The notes below the pieces were generated by a model. That model had not been told where the DNA came from, ran no database searches, and was given only the letters and a program-made list of their open reading frames with translations. From Silicimonas sp. (GTDB taxonomy: Bacteria > Pseudomonadota > Alphaproteobacteria > Rhodobacterales > Rhodobacteraceae): DNA of 64,000 bases. The position numbers and the translations under genes were made by a program. The DNA lies in contig JABDJO010000065.1 of NCBI GenBank assembly GCA_013002465.1, forward strand, positions 1 through 64,000, given 5' to 3'. This document shows, piece after piece, positions 23,205 through 32,891 of the stretch (position 1 is the first letter of the stretch; the number at the start of each line of letters is the position of its first letter).

Positions 23205-23372
23205 ATGTCTGGGGTATGATCGCGGCAGGGTCCGTTGAACCGACGTTCTGCGCGACGCCACTCGGGACGCCAATTGCGAAATCGTTGAGGCGGGAATGCG
23301 CCTTCGCCAGATTGCAGAGGGTGCGGGCGGCGTGTATGTCTTCAAAAAGTGCAAAGACAAAGGGGTTTGGGC

Positions 23373-24635
23373 ATGCGTCGGGTCGTGGTTACTGGACTGG
23401 GAATCGTTTCGCCTTTGGCATCAGGAATCGAACAGACCTGGAGTCGGCTTCTTGACGGCCAATCGGGTGCCGGGACGATCACGCGCTTTGATGCCAGCCA
23501 CCTGGCGACAACCTATGCTTGTGAAGTGCCACGGGGCGATGGGTCGGACGGTACGTTCAACCCTGATGATTGGCTGGCGCCGAAAGAGCAGCGCAAGGTG
23601 GATGAATTCATCACCTATGGCATCGCGGCGGCGGAACAGGCCGTTCAGGACGCAGGCTGGACACCAAGCGATACCGAAAGTCTTGAACGCACTGGCGTCA
23701 TGATCGGTTCGGGCATCGGCGGGTTGCAGTCAATTGCCGAAACCGCCGTTTTGCTGAAGGAGCGTGGGCCACGACGGGTGTCACCGTTCTTTATTCCGGG
23801 TGCTCTGATCAACCTTGTCTCGGGTCAGGTGTCCATCAGATATGGCTTCAAGGGGCCGAACCACGCGGTTGTGACGGCGTGCTCGACAGGGGCACATGCC
23901 ATTGGCGATGCGTCGCGGTTGATCATGCTTGGCGATGCCGATGTCATGATTGCCGGTGGCGCGGAAAGCCCGATCTGCGAGATCGGGATCGCCGGGTTCA
24001 ATGCCTGCAAGGCTTTGTCGACCAAGCGGGCCGATGAGCCCCAGAAGGCCAGCCGCCCTTATGATGCGGATCGGGACGGGTTCGTGATGGGCGAAGGCGC
24101 TGGCGTGGTGGTGTTGGAAGAATACGAGCACGCCAAGGCGCGGGGCGCCAAGATCTATGCCGAGATTCTGGGGTATGGCCTGTCGGGCGATGCCTATCAC
24201 ATCACCGCCCCCTCGGAAGACGGCGAAGGTGGTGAACGGGCCATGCGAAACGCCTTGAATTCGGCAGGACTTCAGGGGGCGGATGTGGATTACATCAATG
24301 CCCATGGTACGTCGACCATGGCGGATACGATTGAATTGGGCGCAGTCGAGCGTGTGATGGGCGATGCGGCCAAGGGGGCAACGATGAGTTCGACCAAATC
24401 CTCGGTCGGGCATTTGCTGGGGGCCGCAGGCGCGGTCGAAGCGATTTTTTGCATCCTTGCCTTGCGCGATCAGGCGGCGCCGCCGACGATCAACCTGGAC
24501 AATCCGGCGATTGAGCCCAAGCTGGATTTGGCTCCGAATGCCAAACGCGAGCGTGAGATTACCGTGGCCTTGTCGAACAGCTTTGGCTTTGGCGGCACCA
24601 ACGCGTCCTTGGTCATGGGACGGATTGATCGCTGA
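23373..24635 (+). CDS. fabF: 3-oxoacyl-ACP synthase II
   Basis: Condensing enzyme of fatty acid elongation, 420 residues. The start MRRVVVTGLGIVSPL at 23373 follows AAAGGGGTTTGGGC; the frame reaching 23349 adds non-family residues. The catalytic triad is visible: Cys near 170 in TACSTGAHAIG, His near 309 in NAHGTST, His near 344 in KSSVGHLLGAAG. The stop overlaps the mltG start by one base. Confidence 0.95.
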   Translation: MRRVVVTGLGIVSPLASGIEQTWSRLLDGQSGAGTITRFDASHLATTYACEVPRGDGSDGTFNPDDWLAPKEQRKVDEFITYGIAAAEQAVQDAGWTPSDTESLERTGVMIGSGIGGLQSIAETAVLLKERGPRRVSPFFIPGALINLVSGQVSIRYGFKGPNHAVVTACSTGAHAIGDASRLIMLGDADVMIAGGAESPICEIGIAGFNACKALSTKRADEPQKASRPYDADRDGFVMGEGAGVVVLEEYEHAKARGAKIYAEILGYGLSGDAYHITAPSEDGEGGERAMRNALNSAGLQGADVDYINAHGTSTMADTIELGAVERVMGDAAKGATMSSTKSSVGHLLGAAGAVEAIFCILALRDQAAPPTINLDNPAIEPKLDLAPNAKREREITVALSNSFGFGGTNASLVMGRIDR

Positions 24636-25795
24636 TGTGGCGCAATCTGGCATCGAACCTGTTAACGGTTCTGATCGTTGCGCTGGTCGCGGTGGCCGGG
24701 GTGATTGGCTGGGGGCAGACGCAGTATGTGGCGCAAGGTCCTTTGGAAGAGCCGATCTGCCTGCAGGTTCCGCGCGGCGGGTCGATGGCGCGTGTAGCCA
24801 CGGATCTTGAGGCTCAGGGTGCCGTTTCGAGTGCGACGATCTATCGGCTTGGGGCGCAGTATTCGGGCCTTTCGCCGCAATTGAAGGCCGGGTCGTTTTT
24901 GATACCGGCCGGAGCCTCGATGCAGGAGATCGTGCGAGAAATCACTGGCGACGGATTGTCGACCTGTGGCACCGAGGTGGTTTTTCTGGTGTCGGTCAAC
25001 AGCCAGTCGGTGCGGTTGCGCGAGCTGAATGCAACGACCCAGGAATTCGAGGTGGTGGCCGAGTTTGATCCCAAGGTCGAAGAGGAACGCCCGGCACCCT
25101 ATCTTGAAGCCCTGGACGATGTGGCGACGAGGTTCCGTCTGGTGGTCGCGGAAGGCGCCACCAGTTGGCAGATTGTCGAAGCCTTGCGGTCCAGTGATTT
25201 GTTCGAAGGTGACGTGGATGCGGTTCCGGACGAGGGATCGCTTGCGCCAGATGGGTACGAATTTCGTCCCGGGGCGGATCGGCTGGACATTCTGACCCAG
25301 ATGGCGCGGGCGCAGACCGATCGCCTTCGGGCCGCCTGGGAGAACCGATCCGAGGATACTCCGGTGGAAACGCCGGAGGAAGCACTGGTGCTGGCGTCGA
25401 TCATCGAAAAGGAAACGGCTTTGGGCGAAGAACGCCCGCTGGTGGCGAGCGTTTTTGCCAACCGGTTGAAGCGTGGCATCAAGTTGCAGACGGACCCGAC
25501 GGTGATTTACGGGGTGACCGAGGGCAAGGGTGTCCTGGGGCGAGGATTGCGGCAGAGCGAGTTGAGGGCCGAGACGCCATGGAACACCTATGTGATCGAG
25601 GGCTTGCCGCCGACGCCAATTGCGAATCCGGGGCGGGCCTCGATCGAGGCGGCGTTGAACCCGGCTGAGTCGGATTACATCTTTTTCGTCGCAAAATCGC
25701 TTGATCCCAGGGACGGGCACAACTTTGCTGCGACATTGGACGAGCACAATCAGAACGTCGCGGCGTACCGGGCATTGGAGCGCGCCAATCAGTAA
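24635..25795 (+). CDS. mltG: Endolytic murein transglycosylase
   Basis: A 386-residue YceG-like enzyme that cleaves nascent peptidoglycan and helps set glycan length. It has one N-terminal membrane helix (LLTVLIVALVAVAGVIGWG), LysM-like segments, and the catalytic region ASIIEKETALGEERPLVASV followed by FANRL and LQTDPTVIYG. It is translationally linked to fabF, a common pairing. It should be an inner-membrane protein with its catalytic domain in the periplasm. Confidence 0.92.
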   Translation: MWRNLASNLLTVLIVALVAVAGVIGWGQTQYVAQGPLEEPICLQVPRGGSMARVATDLEAQGAVSSATIYRLGAQYSGLSPQLKAGSFLIPAGASMQEIVREITGDGLSTCGTEVVFLVSVNSQSVRLRELNATTQEFEVVAEFDPKVEEERPAPYLEALDDVATRFRLVVAEGATSWQIVEALRSSDLFEGDVDAVPDEGSLAPDGYEFRPGADRLDILTQMARAQTDRLRAAWENRSEDTPVETPEEALVLASIIEKETALGEERPLVASVFANRLKRGIKLQTDPTVIYGVTEGKGVLGRGLRQSELRAETPWNTYVIEGLPPTPIANPGRASIEAALNPAESDYIFFVAKSLDPRDGHNFAATLDEHNQNVAAYRALERANQ

Positions 25796-25932: not shown

Positions 25933-25989
25933 GTGACGAAGCGGCATTGGGGTGCTCCCCGCTGCCGCTTTTTCTTTCCTGATACCTAA
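25933..25989 (+). CDS. Possible 18-codon leader peptide overlapping a terminator
   Basis: GTG at 25933 follows TAGGAGAC and opens a frame of 18 codons, MTKRHWGAPRCRFFFPDT, ending at TAA 25987-25989. It spans the terminator stem at 25940-25969. A short translated ORF over a terminator is the layout of an attenuator, so ribosome position could decide read-through into the downstream gp1-like gene. There is no strong run of one amino acid beyond FFF. It may equally be chance within a small terminated RNA. Confidence 0.3.
   Translation: MTKRHWGAPRCRFFFPDT
25940..25977 (+). terminator. Intrinsic terminator just downstream of the strong promoter
   Basis: AGCGGCA (25940-25946) pairs with TGCCGCT (25963-25969), with an inner GGGG/CCCC stem and a TGCT loop, followed by a T-rich tail. 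Its position about 20 bases after the expected start site would give a transcript of roughly 55 nucleotides unless read through. Confidence 0.75.
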
Positions 25990-26005
25990 GCCGGGGGGCG
26001 TCGAG

Positions 26006-26341
26006 ATGACAGACGATCCTTCTATTATTGCCGGGACATTCCAATCGCGCCGGATGCTCGATCAGAGTGAAAAGGCAATGGAAGATATCCTGGCGGCCTT
26101 TGAACTGATGGCCGAGCGGATGTTGGCGGGTGACAACGAGATGTCGTTGTCCGAGTTGACAAAAGCCCGGATTTCGCTCGCGCAGGTACGCTCTCAATTG
26201 GTTGATGAGGTGAACAAGCATGAAAACCGCATTCTACAATCAAAGGGACTCGTCGCTGACGCCCCCCTTGATTTCGACAAGATCCGAGGTGAGATCGGGC
26301 GCCGCCTTGATTGCATCCGCGAGGCGGAAGCAGCAGATTGA
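26006..26341 (+). CDS. GTA gene 1-like protein (small terminase-like)
   Basis: A 111-residue helical protein, MTDDPSIIAGTFQSRRMLDQ through LDFDKIRGEIGRRLDCIREA. Its place immediately upstream of, and overlapping, a GTA terminase-derived frame and its coiled character match gp1 of the Rhodobacter-type gene transfer agent, described as a small terminase subunit. The start at 26006 is preferred to the open frame from 25952. It looks intact although its partner terminase is truncated and fused. Confidence 0.65.
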   Translation: MTDDPSIIAGTFQSRRMLDQSEKAMEDILAAFELMAERMLAGDNEMSLSELTKARISLAQVRSQLVDEVNKHENRILQSKGLVADAPLDFDKIRGEIGRRLDCIREAEAAD

Positions 26342-28712
26342 GTTTATCTCGGGGCTGTCGGACGATGCATTGCGTGGCTTGCCTTATCTGTTCGATTTCT
26401 GGGCCTTACCGCATCAGGTGCCGCCCGAGGGGGACTGGAAGACCTGGATCGTGATGGGTGGACGCGGTGCCGGCAAGACGCGGGCCGGGGCGGAATGGGT
26501 GCGCGGCCAAGTCGAAGGTGCCTTGCCCTATGACGAGGGGCGTGCGCGCCGGGTTGCCTTGGTTGGCGAGACATTTGATCAGGCGCGTGACGTGATGGTC
26601 TTTGGCGACAGCGGCATCCTTGCCTGTTCGCCACCCGACCGTTGTCCGAAATGGGAGGCAGGTCGTCGACGGCTGGTGTGGCCGAACGGCGCCGTGGCGC
26701 AGGTGTTTTCCGCGCACGATTACGAGGGTCTGAGGGGGCCGCAGTTCGATGCTGCCTGGGTGGACGAAATCGGCTGCGCGGCCATCGACAAGGGTACGAA
26801 CCAGCCGAACAAGTTCCTTGATCCCAAGTCGTCGGAATCCTCGTTGCCCAAGTATTCTTCTGGCGCGCGCGATGATTTGATACAGATGCAGTATATGCGC
26901 GCGCTGTCCGAGTATTGGAAGGCACCGGAAAACAACCCGGTGTCGTCGGTCTATGCGTCGCCGATGATTACCACCGACCGGATGTTTGTCTGGGCCTGGG
27001 ATGCGCGGCCTTATCCGATTTTTCCCGCCGACGCCGAAAGCTGGAGCGATGGCGAGAATTATGCGCGCGGGCATTGGCTGAACGGGCGTGTGACCGCGCG
27101 GTCGCTTGCTGGCGTGATTGCTGAACTCTGCGCCGATGCTGGCGTCACGGATGTTGACGCAAGCGGCGTTTATGGGCTGGTTCGGGGTTACGCGCTTGAA
27201 GGTGGCGAAGAAGCACGCGCGGCGATGCAGCCGTTGCTTTTGGCCTTTGGTGTTGACGCGATCGAACGGGACGGTGTGCTGTCGTTTCGCAACCGCGACG
27301 GTGTGGCAAATCGTGAGATCATCGAAACCGATCTTGCCTGGGGTGAAGCGCCGTCCTTGTTGAACAGGACGCGCGCGCCCGATGCCGAAGTGTCGGGGCG
27401 AGTGCGGTTGACCTTTGTCGATGCCGATGGCGACTATGAGGTGCGGGGGTCCGAAGGGATATTCCCGGATGAGGCGACCGTTGGAGTTGCCCGCAGCGAA
27501 TTGCCGTTGGCCCTGACAAGTGGCGAAGCGCGCGCGGTTGTGGAACGCTGGTTGGCCGAGGCGCGCGTGGCACGGGACGGTGTGTCGTTCGCGCTGCCGC
27601 CGTCGGCTGAACTGGCTGCCGGAGATGTGGTCGAAATTGCAGGCGACAGCTATCGCATCGACCGTGTCGAAGAGGCGGGGCTGAAACAGGTCGAAGGCGT
27701 TCGGATCGAACGCGGGCTTTACCGCAGCTTTCCCTCGGACGACGGATTTGCAGCGCCTAAACCCGTCGTTGCCGCCTTGCCGGTCTGGGCCGAAGTCATG
27801 GACTTGCCGCTTTTGCGTGGCGACGAAAACCCGGAGGCGCCGTGGGTGGTGGCGAGTTCCGAGCCATGGCCGGGTGCGGTGGCGGTCTATTCCTCTCTTG
27901 GCGGCGATGACTGGAAGTTCGAAGCCGAGCTGAGCCGCCGGGCGGTCATGGGCGAAACTTTGACGGACCTTCCCGCTGCAGTGCCCGGTCTTTGGGATCG
28001 CGGTGCCGGTCTGGAAGTACGTCTGGTTCATGGTGCCCTTGCCTCGATCGACGACACCGCGCTTTTCGCTGGCGGCAATGTGGCCGTGATCGGAGCGCCC
28101 GGAGGTGATGTCCATGAGGTGTTTCAGTTCAGGGACGCCGAATTGATCTCGCCCGATACCTGGCGGTTGTCACATCGGTTGCGCGGGCAGCGAGGCAGTG
28201 ATGGGGTGATGCCATCTCTTTGGCCCGCTGGTTCGACCCTAGTGGTTTTGGATGCAGCGCCGCAGCAACTGGATCTGCCGCCTGAGTTGCGAGATCTGCC
28301 GCGAACCTATCGGATTTGTCCGGCTTCGAAACCTGTGGACCATAATGCATTTGTCGAACTCACCCATACCGCCAAGGCCATCGGGTTGAAGCCCTATTCG
28401 CCGGTGCATCTGCGTGCGGCAAGCGATGGAAGCGGTGGCCATAATCTTGGCTGGGTGCGGCGTGGCAGAATCGACGGTGACAACTGGAACCTGCCCGACG
28501 TGCCAATCGGTGAGGCCTTTGAGGCCTACCGCGTGCAGGTCTATTCGGGCGGCACGCTCCGACGCGAGGAAACCGTGACGTCGCCTGTGTGGACCTATGA
28601 TGCCGCCGCCCAGTCGAGCGATGGCGTGACATTGCCGTTCGACGTTGAAATTGCCCAGATTTCCGACCTTTACGGGCCGGGAGATATTGCGAGGATCGTG
28701 ATCAATGCCTGA
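26220..28712 (+). CDS. Chimera of GTA large terminase N-terminus and gp15 tail protein C-terminus
   Basis: An 830-residue frame made of two unrelated GTA proteins. Residues 1-183 are terminase-like: LPYLFDFWALPHQVPPEGDW, Walker A MGGRGAGKTRAGAEW, VALVGETFDQARDVM, and Walker B DAAWVDE. From about residue 184 (26769) the sequence switches to gp15 'megatron' sequence: EIGCAAIDKGTNQPNKFLDP (end of its TIM-barrel-like domain), RDDLIQMQYMRALSEYW, VWAWDARPYP, then the phage-tail module to the end. Terminase nuclease domain, genes 3-14 and the first half of gp15 are missing. The join is in frame. The start is uncertain and overlaps gp1 by 122 bases. Confidence 0.85.
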   Translation: MKTAFYNQRDSSLTPPLISTRSEVRSGAALIASARRKQQIEFISGLSDDALRGLPYLFDFWALPHQVPPEGDWKTWIVMGGRGAGKTRAGAEWVRGQVEGALPYDEGRARRVALVGETFDQARDVMVFGDSGILACSPPDRCPKWEAGRRRLVWPNGAVAQVFSAHDYEGLRGPQFDAAWVDEIGCAAIDKGTNQPNKFLDPKSSESSLPKYSSGARDDLIQMQYMRALSEYWKAPENNPVSSVYASPMITTDRMFVWAWDARPYPIFPADAESWSDGENYARGHWLNGRVTARSLAGVIAELCADAGVTDVDASGVYGLVRGYALEGGEEARAAMQPLLLAFGVDAIERDGVLSFRNRDGVANREIIETDLAWGEAPSLLNRTRAPDAEVSGRVRLTFVDADGDYEVRGSEGIFPDEATVGVARSELPLALTSGEARAVVERWLAEARVARDGVSFALPPSAELAAGDVVEIAGDSYRIDRVEEAGLKQVEGVRIERGLYRSFPSDDGFAAPKPVVAALPVWAEVMDLPLLRGDENPEAPWVVASSEPWPGAVAVYSSLGGDDWKFEAELSRRAVMGETLTDLPAAVPGLWDRGAGLEVRLVHGALASIDDTALFAGGNVAVIGAPGGDVHEVFQFRDAELISPDTWRLSHRLRGQRGSDGVMPSLWPAGSTLVVLDAAPQQLDLPPELRDLPRTYRICPASKPVDHNAFVELTHTAKAIGLKPYSPVHLRAASDGSGGHNLGWVRRGRIDGDNWNLPDVPIGEAFEAYRVQVYSGGTLRREETVTSPVWTYDAAAQSSDGVTLPFDVEIAQISDLYGPGDIARIVINA

Positions 28713-29415
28713 TACAAACCGTCTGGGGTTGCCGCTTTTGGCACCCGCTCAAGCTCAGAAACATGTGACCGTGAACGAAAGTTTGGCGCGTTTGGATGCA
28801 CTTGTGCATCTGTCGCTTGCCTCGGTCGGCACGACCGTCCCGCCGGGCTCACCTGTTGAGGGCGAAGCACATGGTGTCGGTTCGGGCGCGACCGGGGCTT
28901 GGGCTGGTCAGGATGGCGCGCTTGCGGTGTATCTGAACGGAGGATGGGCCTTTCTGACACCGGGGACCGGTTGGCAGGGTTGGTCCGAAACGGGCGGCAC
29001 GCGTGTCGCATTCGACGGGCAGGATTGGATTGAGGGGGCCGGTGCGGTATCAGCCAATGGTGCGGGGTTCGTGCATCGAACGGTAGAGCTTGACCATGCG
29101 GTAACTTCGGGCGCGACGTCTGCTGTTGCCAGTGCATTGCCTGCCGGAGCGATGGTTTATGGCGTAACGGGGCGTGTGATTTCAGCCATCGGCGGTGTGT
29201 CAACACTGGAGGTTGGTGTATCGGGGTCAAGCAATCGCTATGGCAGCGGTATAGGGACCGGTTCGGGATCATGGATGCGCGGCCTGACTGGATCGCCTTT
29301 GGCGTATTACAGCGCGACCGATCTGGTTTTGACGGCGGAAGGCGGGACGTTCGATGGCACCGGCACGATCCGGCTGGCGATTCACTTTGCCGAGTTGACC
29401 TTGCCGCGCGCCTAG
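28705..29415 (+). CDS. DUF2793 GTA-associated protein
   Basis: A 236-residue protein opening MPDTNRLGLPLLAPAQAQKH, the signature of DUF2793, found next to gp15 at the end of Rhodobacterales GTA clusters. It is Gly/Ser/Thr-rich with a beta-rich C-terminal half (VTGRVISAIGGVSTLEVGVSG), as in phage tail or fibre parts. It overlaps the chimera by eight bases. It appears intact, and so may be expressed without a particle to join. Confidence 0.75.
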   Translation: MPDTNRLGLPLLAPAQAQKHVTVNESLARLDALVHLSLASVGTTVPPGSPVEGEAHGVGSGATGAWAGQDGALAVYLNGGWAFLTPGTGWQGWSETGGTRVAFDGQDWIEGAGAVSANGAGFVHRTVELDHAVTSGATSAVASALPAGAMVYGVTGRVISAIGGVSTLEVGVSGSSNRYGSGIGTGSGSWMRGLTGSPLAYYSATDLVLTAEGGTFDGTGTIRLAIHFAELTLPRA

Positions 29416-29833: not shown

Positions 29834-30658
29834 ATGGCCAAAAACAATCCCAGCCCGAGAGCGCTGGATCCGGTTTGGGATCGGATACAGGAAGATGCCC
29901 ATGCCGCGGTCGCGGCCGAGCCGTTGATCGGCGGGATGGTGCACGCAACGGTGTTGCACCACAAATCCCTGGAGAGCGCCCTGGCGTACAGGTTTGCGTT
30001 CAAGCTTTCCTCGTCCGAGATGACGGGCCAGTTGCTGCGGGAAATCTCGGAAGAGGCGTTGGCCCAGGATCCCTGGTTGGGCGAAGCCGCTCGTGCTGAT
30101 CTGGTGGCCATCTACGAGCGTGATCCTGCCTGTCACCGATTGATGCAGCCATTGCTTTTCTTCAAGGGATTTCAAGCGGTTCAAGCCTATCGGGTCGGGC
30201 ATTGGTTGTGGTCCAATGGGCGCAAGGATCTGGCCTATTACATTCAGGCGCGGGTCAGCGAGATTTTCGGCATCGACATTCATCCCAATGCCGTGATCGG
30301 CAAGGGTCTGATGATTGACCACGCTCATTCGATTGTGATTGGCGAAACGGCTGTTGTCGGAAACAACGTCTCGATGCTGCATTCGGTGACCTTGGGCGGT
30401 ACCGGGAAAGAAGACGACGACCGGCATCCCAAGATCGGGGATGGAGTGTTGATTGGCGCCGGCGCCAAAGTGTTGGGTAACATCCGCGTGGGAAGCTGCA
30501 GTCGGGTGGCTGCAGGATCGGTCGTTTTGCAGGAAGTGCCGCCGTGCAAGACCGTCGCCGGGGTGCCTGCGCAGATTGTCGGAGAGGCCGGATGCGACCA
30601 GCCGGCCCTGACAATGGACCAAATCCTGAACGGCGTTGGCGGTGGGCCGCTAACATAA
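29834..30658 (+). CDS. cysE: Serine O-acetyltransferase
   Basis: Makes O-acetylserine from serine and acetyl-CoA, the first step of cysteine synthesis. The 274-residue protein has an N-terminal helical domain (WDRIQEDAHAAVAAEPLIGG) and a left-handed beta-helix with hexapeptide repeats (IDIHPNAVIGKGLMIDHAHS, then VLGNIRVGSCSRVAAGSVVL). The catalytic His/Asp region and the GGTGKEDDDRHPKIGDGVLI loop are present. cysK follows after 114 bases, so the two probably work as a unit. Confidence 0.94.
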   Translation: MAKNNPSPRALDPVWDRIQEDAHAAVAAEPLIGGMVHATVLHHKSLESALAYRFAFKLSSSEMTGQLLREISEEALAQDPWLGEAARADLVAIYERDPACHRLMQPLLFFKGFQAVQAYRVGHWLWSNGRKDLAYYIQARVSEIFGIDIHPNAVIGKGLMIDHAHSIVIGETAVVGNNVSMLHSVTLGGTGKEDDDRHPKIGDGVLIGAGAKVLGNIRVGSCSRVAAGSVVLQEVPPCKTVAGVPAQIVGEAGCDQPALTMDQILNGVGGGPLT

Positions 30659-30772: not shown

Positions 30773-31837
30773 ATGGGAATTCGCCAAACTAGTGGTCGCG
30801 GTCGTTTTGATAGCATTCTAGACACCGTGGGCGACACGCCGACGGTTCGGATCAATCGGATCGCTCCGAAGAATGTCACGGTCTATGTGAAGTTCGAGGC
30901 TTTCAACCCGGCGGGATCGGTTAAGGATCGCCTGGCATTGAACATTATAGAGGCCGCCGAACGCGATGGCCGGTTGCAGCCCGGTCAGACCGTGGTGGAG
31001 GCCACAAGCGGCAACACCGGCATTGGTCTGGCGATGGTCTGTGCCGCCAAGGGTTATCCGTTGGTGGTCACCATGGCGGACAGTTTTTCCATCGAGCGGC
31101 GGCGCCTGATGCGGTTTCTGGGGGCCAAGGTCGTGCTGACCCCGCGCGCAGCCAAGGGGTTTGGCATGTACCAGAAAGCCGTCGAACTGGCCGATGCAAA
31201 CGGTTGGTTTCTGGCCAGTCAATTCGAGACTCCGGACAATGCGGATATCCACGAAAGCACCACCGCGCGCGAGATCATCGGGGATTTCGAGGGCGAACCA
31301 CTGGATTATTTCGTTACCGGTTATGGCACCGGCGGAACCGTGTCGGGCGTTGGCAGGGTTCTGAGAAAAGAACGGCCCGAGACCAAGATCATACTGACCG
31401 AACCGGCCAATGCCGCCATCGTGTCGTCGGGCTATGTGAATACCCGCAACGACGACCATCAGCCGACCGAAGGGCACCCGAATTTTGAACCGCATCCCAT
31501 CCAGGGGTGGACACCGGATTTCATTCCCTGGGTCCTGCAAGAGGCGATGGACAACGGGTATTATGATCAGATGTTGCCGGTTCCCGGTCCCGAAGGGATT
31601 GCCTGGTCAAAGCGCCTGGCGGCCGAAGAGGGGATTTTCACAGGCATCTCGGGTGGGTCGACTTTTGCCGTCGCCATGACAGTGGCCGAGGAGGCACCCG
31701 AGGGATCGGTCATGCTGGTGATGCTGCCGGATACCGGCGAGCGCTATCTATCGACGCCGCTTTTTGAAGGGATTGCTGAAGACATGACGGAGGAAGAAGG
31801 CGCGCTGTCGGCTTCAACCCCAAGTCACCAGCTTTAG
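30773..31837 (+). CDS. cysK: Cysteine synthase A
   Basis: PLP enzyme that converts O-acetylserine and sulfide to cysteine; 354 residues, longer than the 310-320 of enterobacterial CysK but in line with related alphaproteobacterial forms. PLP Lys51 is in NPAGSVKDRL, the substrate loop is EATSGNTGIGLAM and the phosphate site GYGTGGTVSGVG. The start MGIRQTSGRG at 30773 follows AAGGGG. It converges with a cupin gene, overlapping by four bases. Confidence 0.93.
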   Translation: MGIRQTSGRGRFDSILDTVGDTPTVRINRIAPKNVTVYVKFEAFNPAGSVKDRLALNIIEAAERDGRLQPGQTVVEATSGNTGIGLAMVCAAKGYPLVVTMADSFSIERRRLMRFLGAKVVLTPRAAKGFGMYQKAVELADANGWFLASQFETPDNADIHESTTAREIIGDFEGEPLDYFVTGYGTGGTVSGVGRVLRKERPETKIILTEPANAAIVSSGYVNTRNDDHQPTEGHPNFEPHPIQGWTPDFIPWVLQEAMDNGYYDQMLPVPGPEGIAWSKRLAAEEGIFTGISGGSTFAVAMTVAEEAPEGSVMLVMLPDTGERYLSTPLFEGIAEDMTEEEGALSASTPSHQL

Positions 31838-32319
31838 GTCTTGGCGCCGAAAGGGCGGTCGATCACAGCAAGATCCACAAGGTTCCAGGTCAGATTTCTG
31901 TTTCGAAACAGACGTTTGCCGAGACGTGGATAGTCCGAAACATCGTGGTTTCGCCGCTGGCTGACCGCGATGCATTTCAGGGGGCCTTGCCCTGTGTTTT
32001 TCAGCGAATGGGCCAGACCGCCTTTGCGGTACCCGACGAAATCGCCAGCCTTAACAACGTGGCTGACGCTGCCGACGCGCGCCGTTGCTTCACCTTCCAG
32101 CACGTACAGGCATTCTTCTTCATGGTAGTGCAGGTGGTGTTCGGTGCTTTCGTCGCCGGGCGCGACCTCGACAATATTGAAGACAAGCTCTTCCAGATCG
32201 GTCGCATCGCTTAGAGATTTTTCGCGTCTTCGCGCGTTGCCATTCAGGAAATGGGTTTTTTCCGACCCGGGCATCGCCTCGATCGTATCGGAAGCCAGAA
32301 CATATTTGTCGTTCGCCAT
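31834..32319 (-). CDS. Cupin-domain protein, tandem paralogue 2
   Basis: A 161-residue single-domain cupin. The metal-binding motif reads HHLHYHEEECLYVLEGEAT, with the second half GDFVGYRKGGLAHSLKN. It closely resembles the cupin encoded immediately upstream (32406-32891), including the shared C-terminal RLFRNRNLTWNLVDL pattern, so the two arose by duplication. The start MANDKYVLASDTIEAMPGSE is chosen over a frame eight codons longer. The ligand is unknown. It sits 86 bases after the first cupin at the end of the PDH operon. Confidence 0.8.
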   Translation of the reverse strand: MANDKYVLASDTIEAMPGSEKTHFLNGNARRREKSLSDATDLEELVFNIVEVAPGDESTEHHLHYHEEECLYVLEGEATARVGSVSHVVKAGDFVGYRKGGLAHSLKNTGQGPLKCIAVSQRRNHDVSDYPRLGKRLFRNRNLTWNLVDLAVIDRPFGAKT

Positions 32320-32405
32320 CAGCACACTCCCGCTCCGGGGCAAAATCCCGGGTCGCTGACCTGCACTAGGGCAGGAAATCGTGTGAATAGGATTAAGATC
32401 GCAGG

Positions 32406-32891
32406 CTATTTCTTTGCGCCTGCCGTCGGACTTTCCAATGCATCAAAGTCAGCCAGATCCCAGGCCATGCCGGCGTTCCGATAGATGCGTTGCTTCTTCC
32501 TGGGATAATCCGCCACGTCGTGTGCCAGCCGCTGACCGATCACCAAGCATCGAAACGTCTCGTCTCCGGTGTTGCGGATTGTGTGGGCAAGGCCGTCTTT
32601 GCGATAACCGATGAAATCACCGGGGCCAATCTGCACGTCTTCATCGCCTATTTCGGCAGTGGCAGTTCCCGACAGCACATAGACCGCTTCGTCCTCATAG
32701 TAGTGGACGTGATATTCGGTAGTCTCATGACCCGGCTCAACTTCGATCAGGTGGATGCCAAGGCCGGTTAAACCCGTGAGATCGCCAAGGGATTTATTGA
32801 TCCGCTTGGCGTTCGCGTTCTGAAAGTGGGTCTTGGCAAGCCCCTCCAGGGACTCGATTTCGGCGGCAGTGACCAGGTAACCCTTGGTCAT
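32406..32891 (-). CDS. Cupin-domain protein, tandem paralogue 1
   Basis: A 161-residue cupin: [20 protein letters not shown] and [17 protein letters not shown] are the two conserved motifs, with His and Glu metal ligands in place. Its start codon overlaps the stop of pdhC by four bases, so it is co-translated with the pyruvate dehydrogenase E2 gene. Similar cupins act as isomerases, dioxygenases or binding proteins; no substrate can be read. The coupling suggests a service role for PDH or for a keto-acid metabolite, which is inference. Confidence 0.82.

Follow-up and report, generated by a model that had tools for sequence, protein, structure and literature searches.

GTAs are frequently viewed as a public good, and in theory non-producers should keep arising. 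One study reports pseudogenised and lost GTA clusters, interprets them as possible cheaters, and presents GTA loss and 'cheater' lineages as predictions of theory (PMC10883770). In RcGTA, gp1 is the small terminase (PMC6854486). The open papers of the GTA literature that we searched make no mention of a terminase-megatron fusion, which may still be reported elsewhere.

Here, we analyse such a fusion in Silicimonas sp. (Rhodobacteraceae; contig JABDJO010000065.1). Throughout, the window is the whole stretch of DNA that was analysed, 64,000 nucleotides in length. A preliminary description of the window had proposed that a deletion joined the N-terminus of the large terminase in frame to the gp15 tail protein (the megatron). 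Our best overall explanation, to which we give a probability of roughly one half, is that the chimera is a recurrent, unusually exact GTA-null allele, with a filter on the protein product as the leading guess for its exactness.

The chimeric gene and its locus

The chimera is a single uninterrupted frame of 830 codons (Table 1), and its Pfam and NCBIfam domain matches bear out the in-frame fusion of the two proteins. The terminase part matches Terminase_6N (Pfam; residues 78-184) and retains both Walker A (MGGRGAGKT, residues 79-87) and Walker B. With residues 1-183 left of about 470, the large terminase is incomplete and its nuclease domain is missing; no second terminase match was found in the genome. 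The remainder matches GTA_TIM (Pfam; residues 174-269, the last third of the profile only, profile positions 204-299), Phage-tail_3 (Pfam; residues 330-484) and Rcc01698_C (Pfam; residues 575-675). The NCBIfam model GTA_megatron (NF048004) aligns residues 175-827 with profile positions 640-1298 of 1299; its score of 722 bits lies below the cut-off of 800, and the protein falls short of a full-length megatron (about 1300 aa). A Foldseek search with the chimera model matched the C-half to an R4C phage baseplate and to a native GTA particle protein. The gp15-like part is followed by a DUF2793 protein, as had been described.

Table 1. Features of the GTA locus in the window
Feature	Position	Strand	Remark
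fabF and mltG, upstream flank of the GTA locus	23349..25795	+	synteny with fused and intact relatives; names inferred
ORF at the gp1 position, overlapping the chimera start	25952..26341	+	role by position
Chimeric ORF, 830 aa: N-half of the GTA large terminase and C-half of gp15/megatron, in frame	26220..28712	+	
Terminase part, residues 1-183, stopping right past Walker B (AAWVDE)	26220..26768	+	Pfam Terminase_6N
Junction codon GAA (E183), where terminase-like sequence gives way to megatron-like	26766..26768	+	identical position in 27/27 fused loci
Megatron (gp15) C-half, residues 184-830	26769..28709	+	end of GTA_TIM, Phage-tail_3 hub, Rcc01698_C
DUF2793 tail-fibre-like protein, start overlapping the chimera stop	28705..29415	+	
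cysE, downstream flank of the GTA locus	29834..30658	+	gene name inferred

The ORF at the gp1 position is 55-57% identical to the ORF at the equivalent place in two loci with intact clusters, L150 and L151, and matches no family in Pfam, NCBIfam or PHROGs. Farther upstream of fabF and mltG lie fabD and fabG. Within the extent of the fetched stretches, the ancestral order of the GTA locus is fabD-fabG-fabF-mltG-gp1-(terminase ... megatron)-DUF2793-cysE, with gp1 and DUF2793 detected in some of the compared loci and not in all. The chimera is a GTA-deletion remnant at this ancestral locus: its flanks match those of the intact clusters in L150 and L151.

Some further features of the neighbourhood may be recorded. 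The gp1-like ORF and the start of the chimera (26220) overlap by about 120 bases, and the two genes overlap likewise in intact L151 (1633-1968 versus 1847). The DUF2793 gene starts within the stop of the chimera (28705-28712), and its translation may be coupled to that of the fused gene. Two neighbouring, similar small genes on the minus strand (31834-32343 and 32406-32891), cupin-like by eye, sit between the GTA flank and genes resembling pyruvate dehydrogenase components.

Loss of the GTA core

L150 and L151 are the closest relatives of the fused locus, by GTA proteins and by flank genes, and the distance between the joined points in their intact clusters is 10,969 bp and 11,061 bp, respectively. 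Genes 3-14, the nuclease half of the terminase and the N-half of the megatron are lost from the fused locus. Across this genome, the HK97 major capsid (PF05065) and portal (PF04860) families have no match, and the capsid and megatron N-half proteins of intact L151 match the sister genomes G413 and G414 but not this one; the assembly is 93% complete, so the absence of these genes is strong, not absolute. The capsid and the megatron N-half are missing genome-wide in all 10 fused genomes tested.

In situ, between mltG and cysE, an RcGTA-type head-tail cluster has lost about 11 kb. The deleted stretch begins just past the glutamate codon of Walker B in the large terminase gene and extends to the corresponding glutamate codon of W-x-x-E in the megatron gene, within the part that encodes the TIM barrel. 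A single open chimeric gene was left and, judging by gene content, GTA particle production from the locus should be lost, as the preliminary description had also concluded. Its further proposal, a single deletion of about 11-12 kb, stands as regards an in-frame loss of about 11 kb and falls as regards a single private event, since the same junction is found in at least 26 other loci.

An exact junction across Rhodobacteraceae

In the window, the protein is terminase-like through D182/E183 and megatron-like from I184, so that the two parents switch exactly at E183, with no indel. The identical chimera occurs in 27 collected Rhodobacteraceae loci, this one included: the terminase runs to W-x-D-E and is followed, again with no indel, by megatron x-G-C (in L127 and L173, which are otherwise damaged, the C-half or the spanning match gave the junction). 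The frame is kept at all 27 junctions, and about 24 of the 27 fused ORFs are free of internal stops and frameshifts. Intact clusters have GPQFD(A/G)AW(V/A)DE-LAKW at the terminase site and SKP(I/V)WFTE-xGCAA at the megatron site; the residue that follows the glutamate in the chimeras varies as it does in the megatron, unlike the almost constant Leu of the terminase. The closest sets of fused and intact loci (L281 versus L290 and L300; L322 versus L333) place the switch between parents at exactly this point, with 2-4 common bases.

With the chimera as query, a GTDB genome scan recovered the fusion, again full-length, in Roseovarius pacificus DSM 29589, Silicimonas algicola DSM 103371, a Silicimonas MAG, an uncultured Sulfitobacter and others. 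A private or recent single deletion is ruled out by these other genomes. A query spanning the junction matched end to end in 16 of 395 family genomes, one per genus, or about 4% of genera; the 16 had no separate second match at 1e-40, and most other genomes gave two separate matches. With one genome sampled per species, the fused form was found in 4 of 62 species in the genus of G071, which by position match includes the uncultured Sulfitobacter genome, and in 3 of 13 in the genus of G394. All these counts rest on the chimera itself as query, which undercounts fusions with very different ends and should have revealed near variants. Among 385 genomes of the class, no spanning match lay outside the family at E <= 1e-62, a threshold that may miss distant ones, and no fused form was found in IMG/VR, where matches start at about residue 153 or later.

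Some relatives also have second megatron-like proteins with 37-39% identity (G003:C1:2468384-2470327, G016:C2:34886-36880 and G023:C7:1075-3066), which perhaps belong to prophages or to a second GTA-like baseplate module.

Probable repeated origin of the fusion

Fused loci are non-monophyletic on trees of the C-half, of the weakly resolved N-half and of the flank genes, which rules out a monophyletic ancient fusion. When two genera were densely sampled, fused species adjoined different intact species. On a tree of 18 rows, the fused and intact labels change five times, and all five changes are forced. Larger trees, each of about 100 rows with 27 fused, need 22 changes for the GTA proteins (18 forced by supported branches) and 25 for the flank genes (17 forced); both were quick searches with SH-aLRT support only, so these counts of independent events rest on moderate support. 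Shuffled labels give a mean of about 24 changes, close to what a randomly spread label would show on these trees.

A deletion of 11 kb is irreversible except by re-import of the cluster, and most label changes would hence be separate losses. We consider it very probable that the in situ deletion arose recurrently in Rhodobacteraceae. The same deletion would then arise de novo many times and sit at the tips of the tree, a placement such as may be expected of short-lived or polymorphic 'non-producer' alleles.

A random spread over the tree is also what a systematic artefact of assembly or processing, making the same join in many genomes, would give. Assembly collapse had been raised in the preliminary description as well. 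Such an artefact is very improbable, because isolates and MAGs from different groups have the junction, as do genomes that are closed or nearly so (G071 in one contig, G858 in two), and because the few bases common to the two sites would not suffice for an assembler to join them. The genome-wide loss of the capsid and megatron N-half from all ten fused genomes and the relaxation and decay described below point the same way.

Alternatively, one ancient deletion allele may have been retained, as a trans-species polymorphism, or transferred horizontally between species by homologous recombination, with its flanks homogenised with local intact alleles. This would account for an identical junction without a molecular hotspot, for the random spread and for frequencies that are similarly low in most samples. 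We nevertheless regard it as quite unlikely. Near the junction, fused alleles are neither closer to each other nor more distant from intact alleles, and no residues or codons common to them were found; the closest fused-intact pairs show no foreign tract around the junction in comparison with intact-intact controls (p = 0.89), with the power of both the import and the shared-allele tests limited by synonymous sites near saturation. In L281, moreover, the sequence immediately right of the junction matches that of its sister L290 at each of the first 20 bases. An early impression of an imported tract failed against the same intact-intact controls.

The search for a cause of exactness

The preliminary description had placed the ends of the deletion in short sequences coding W-x-x-E. 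This likeness holds at the protein level (WVDE in the terminase, WFTE in the megatron) and fails as a mechanism, as the DNA shares just 2-8 bases and a long direct repeat at the deletion ends is absent. A hotspot of homology or microhomology, with slippage between the two W-x-x-E coding sequences, would draw on TGG and GAR, which are shared in register, and, in some intact clusters, on as many as 8 identical bases. However, the two sites form a poor direct repeat when set against thousands of other site pairs in the same intact clusters, and most offsets score better. In addition, all crossovers lie at the E codon and none at the W codon, though a crossover at W would keep the frame just as well and would have at least as many shared bases. 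As the cause on its own, microhomology is strongly disfavoured and retains very little probability.

Ordinary loss of the GTA cluster looks different. Relatives carry other GTA deletions at six loci, all with different ends (gene names by position, in RcGTA order): terminase 373 to megatron 280 (L147), portal 126 to g10 (L148), capsid 211 to tape measure 46 (L154), terminase 261 to megatron 19 (L155), the terminase end to g13 (L156) and portal 227 to megatron 982 (L160). These deleted or decayed clusters can serve as a baseline of ordinary GTA loss.

Their unrelated ends make the exact fusion special, and would favour a dedicated excision in which some nuclease or recombinase would cut at the Walker B site of the terminase and the W-x-x-E site of the megatron and, by removing the GTA core, act as an OFF switch. 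That the event is exact, recurrent, tip-distributed, family-wide and independent of homology agrees with such a process. Against it, 69 intact clusters show no synonymous-site conservation at either site, third positions varying like their surroundings, hence no evident DNA recognition element, and there is no obvious common core past GA(R). We see a targeted excision as an unlikely cause. Its fuller form, a programmed excision in Rhodobacteraceae that would turn producers into non-producers by removing a core of about 11 kb between two fixed codons and leave an open Walker A/B-megatron chimera, is a little more doubtful still.

With a repeat hotspot, a DNA element, allele spread and artefact all disfavoured, what remains is either this targeted process or a filter on the protein product. 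Under a product filter, countless deletions would occur, and the one to persist would be that which preserves the frame, the strand register and the complete Walker A/B site, helped by the W-x-x-E that the two sites share by chance. We hold this as a tentative leading guess for the exactness, somewhat short of even odds.

Possible selection on the fused product

Substitution rates relative to the flanks bear on the product filter. The C-half evolves at a median of 1.65 in fused and 1.90 in intact loci (p = 0.92), and the N-half at 1.70 in fused and 1.09 in intact loci (p = 0.056; p = 0.02 for unbroken ORFs only). From these rates, the N-half appears mildly relaxed after fusion. Some fused genes have decayed. 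Fully invariant Walker A/B positions are changed in 0 of 576 cells in 24 unbroken fused genes and in 12 of 742 elsewhere. Walker-sparing was dropped as proof of selection on the chimera, as there is no excess over the intact-terminase baseline, and an initially strong signal had used a core set picked after the changes were seen. AlphaFold gives no support for a hybrid fold, with pLDDT under 50 at residues 168-225 (from a shallow alignment of 22 sequences). Elsewhere in the terminase part, six fused loci have Thr in place of S137 and a seventh has Ala (L013, L123, L132, L133, L136, L137 and L281), compared with a change at this residue in just 2 of 73 non-fused loci, possibly through relaxation or convergence.

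The product filter is thus favoured by the in-frame junctions, the mostly open ORFs, the rate of the C-half and the intact Walker A/B site, and weakened by the disordered model at the junction, by Walker-sparing at the intact baseline and by the absence of W-codon crossovers. Should the fused alleles simply be of very recent origin, their low dN/dS would be uninformative about selection on the chimera. The invariant position of the junction is stricter than most functional filters would yield, and is hard to reconcile with a loose one.

Comparison with known GTA systems

The fusion provides a defined and countable non-producer allele in about 4% of the genera sampled, with which the cheater question becomes directly testable. 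It also poses a puzzle: the same codon-to-codon deletion recurs though its DNA ends have almost nothing in common, and ordinary deletion mechanisms fail to explain it.

With the RcGTA-type head-tail cluster, the chimera locus shares its place (mltG ... cysE), the gp1 position, the terminase N-half, the megatron C-half and DUF2793; unlike that cluster, it has no genes 3-14, terminase nuclease half or megatron N-half, and particles would not be expected from it. The internally deleted clusters of L147, L148, L154, L155, L156 and L160 have lost parts of the same cluster and differ from the fusion in their ends. With the pseudogenised or lost clusters of 'cheater' lineages (PMC10883770), the chimera shares the loss of production in scattered lineages; the fusion is no random decay, being one exact in-frame junction repeated across many lineages.
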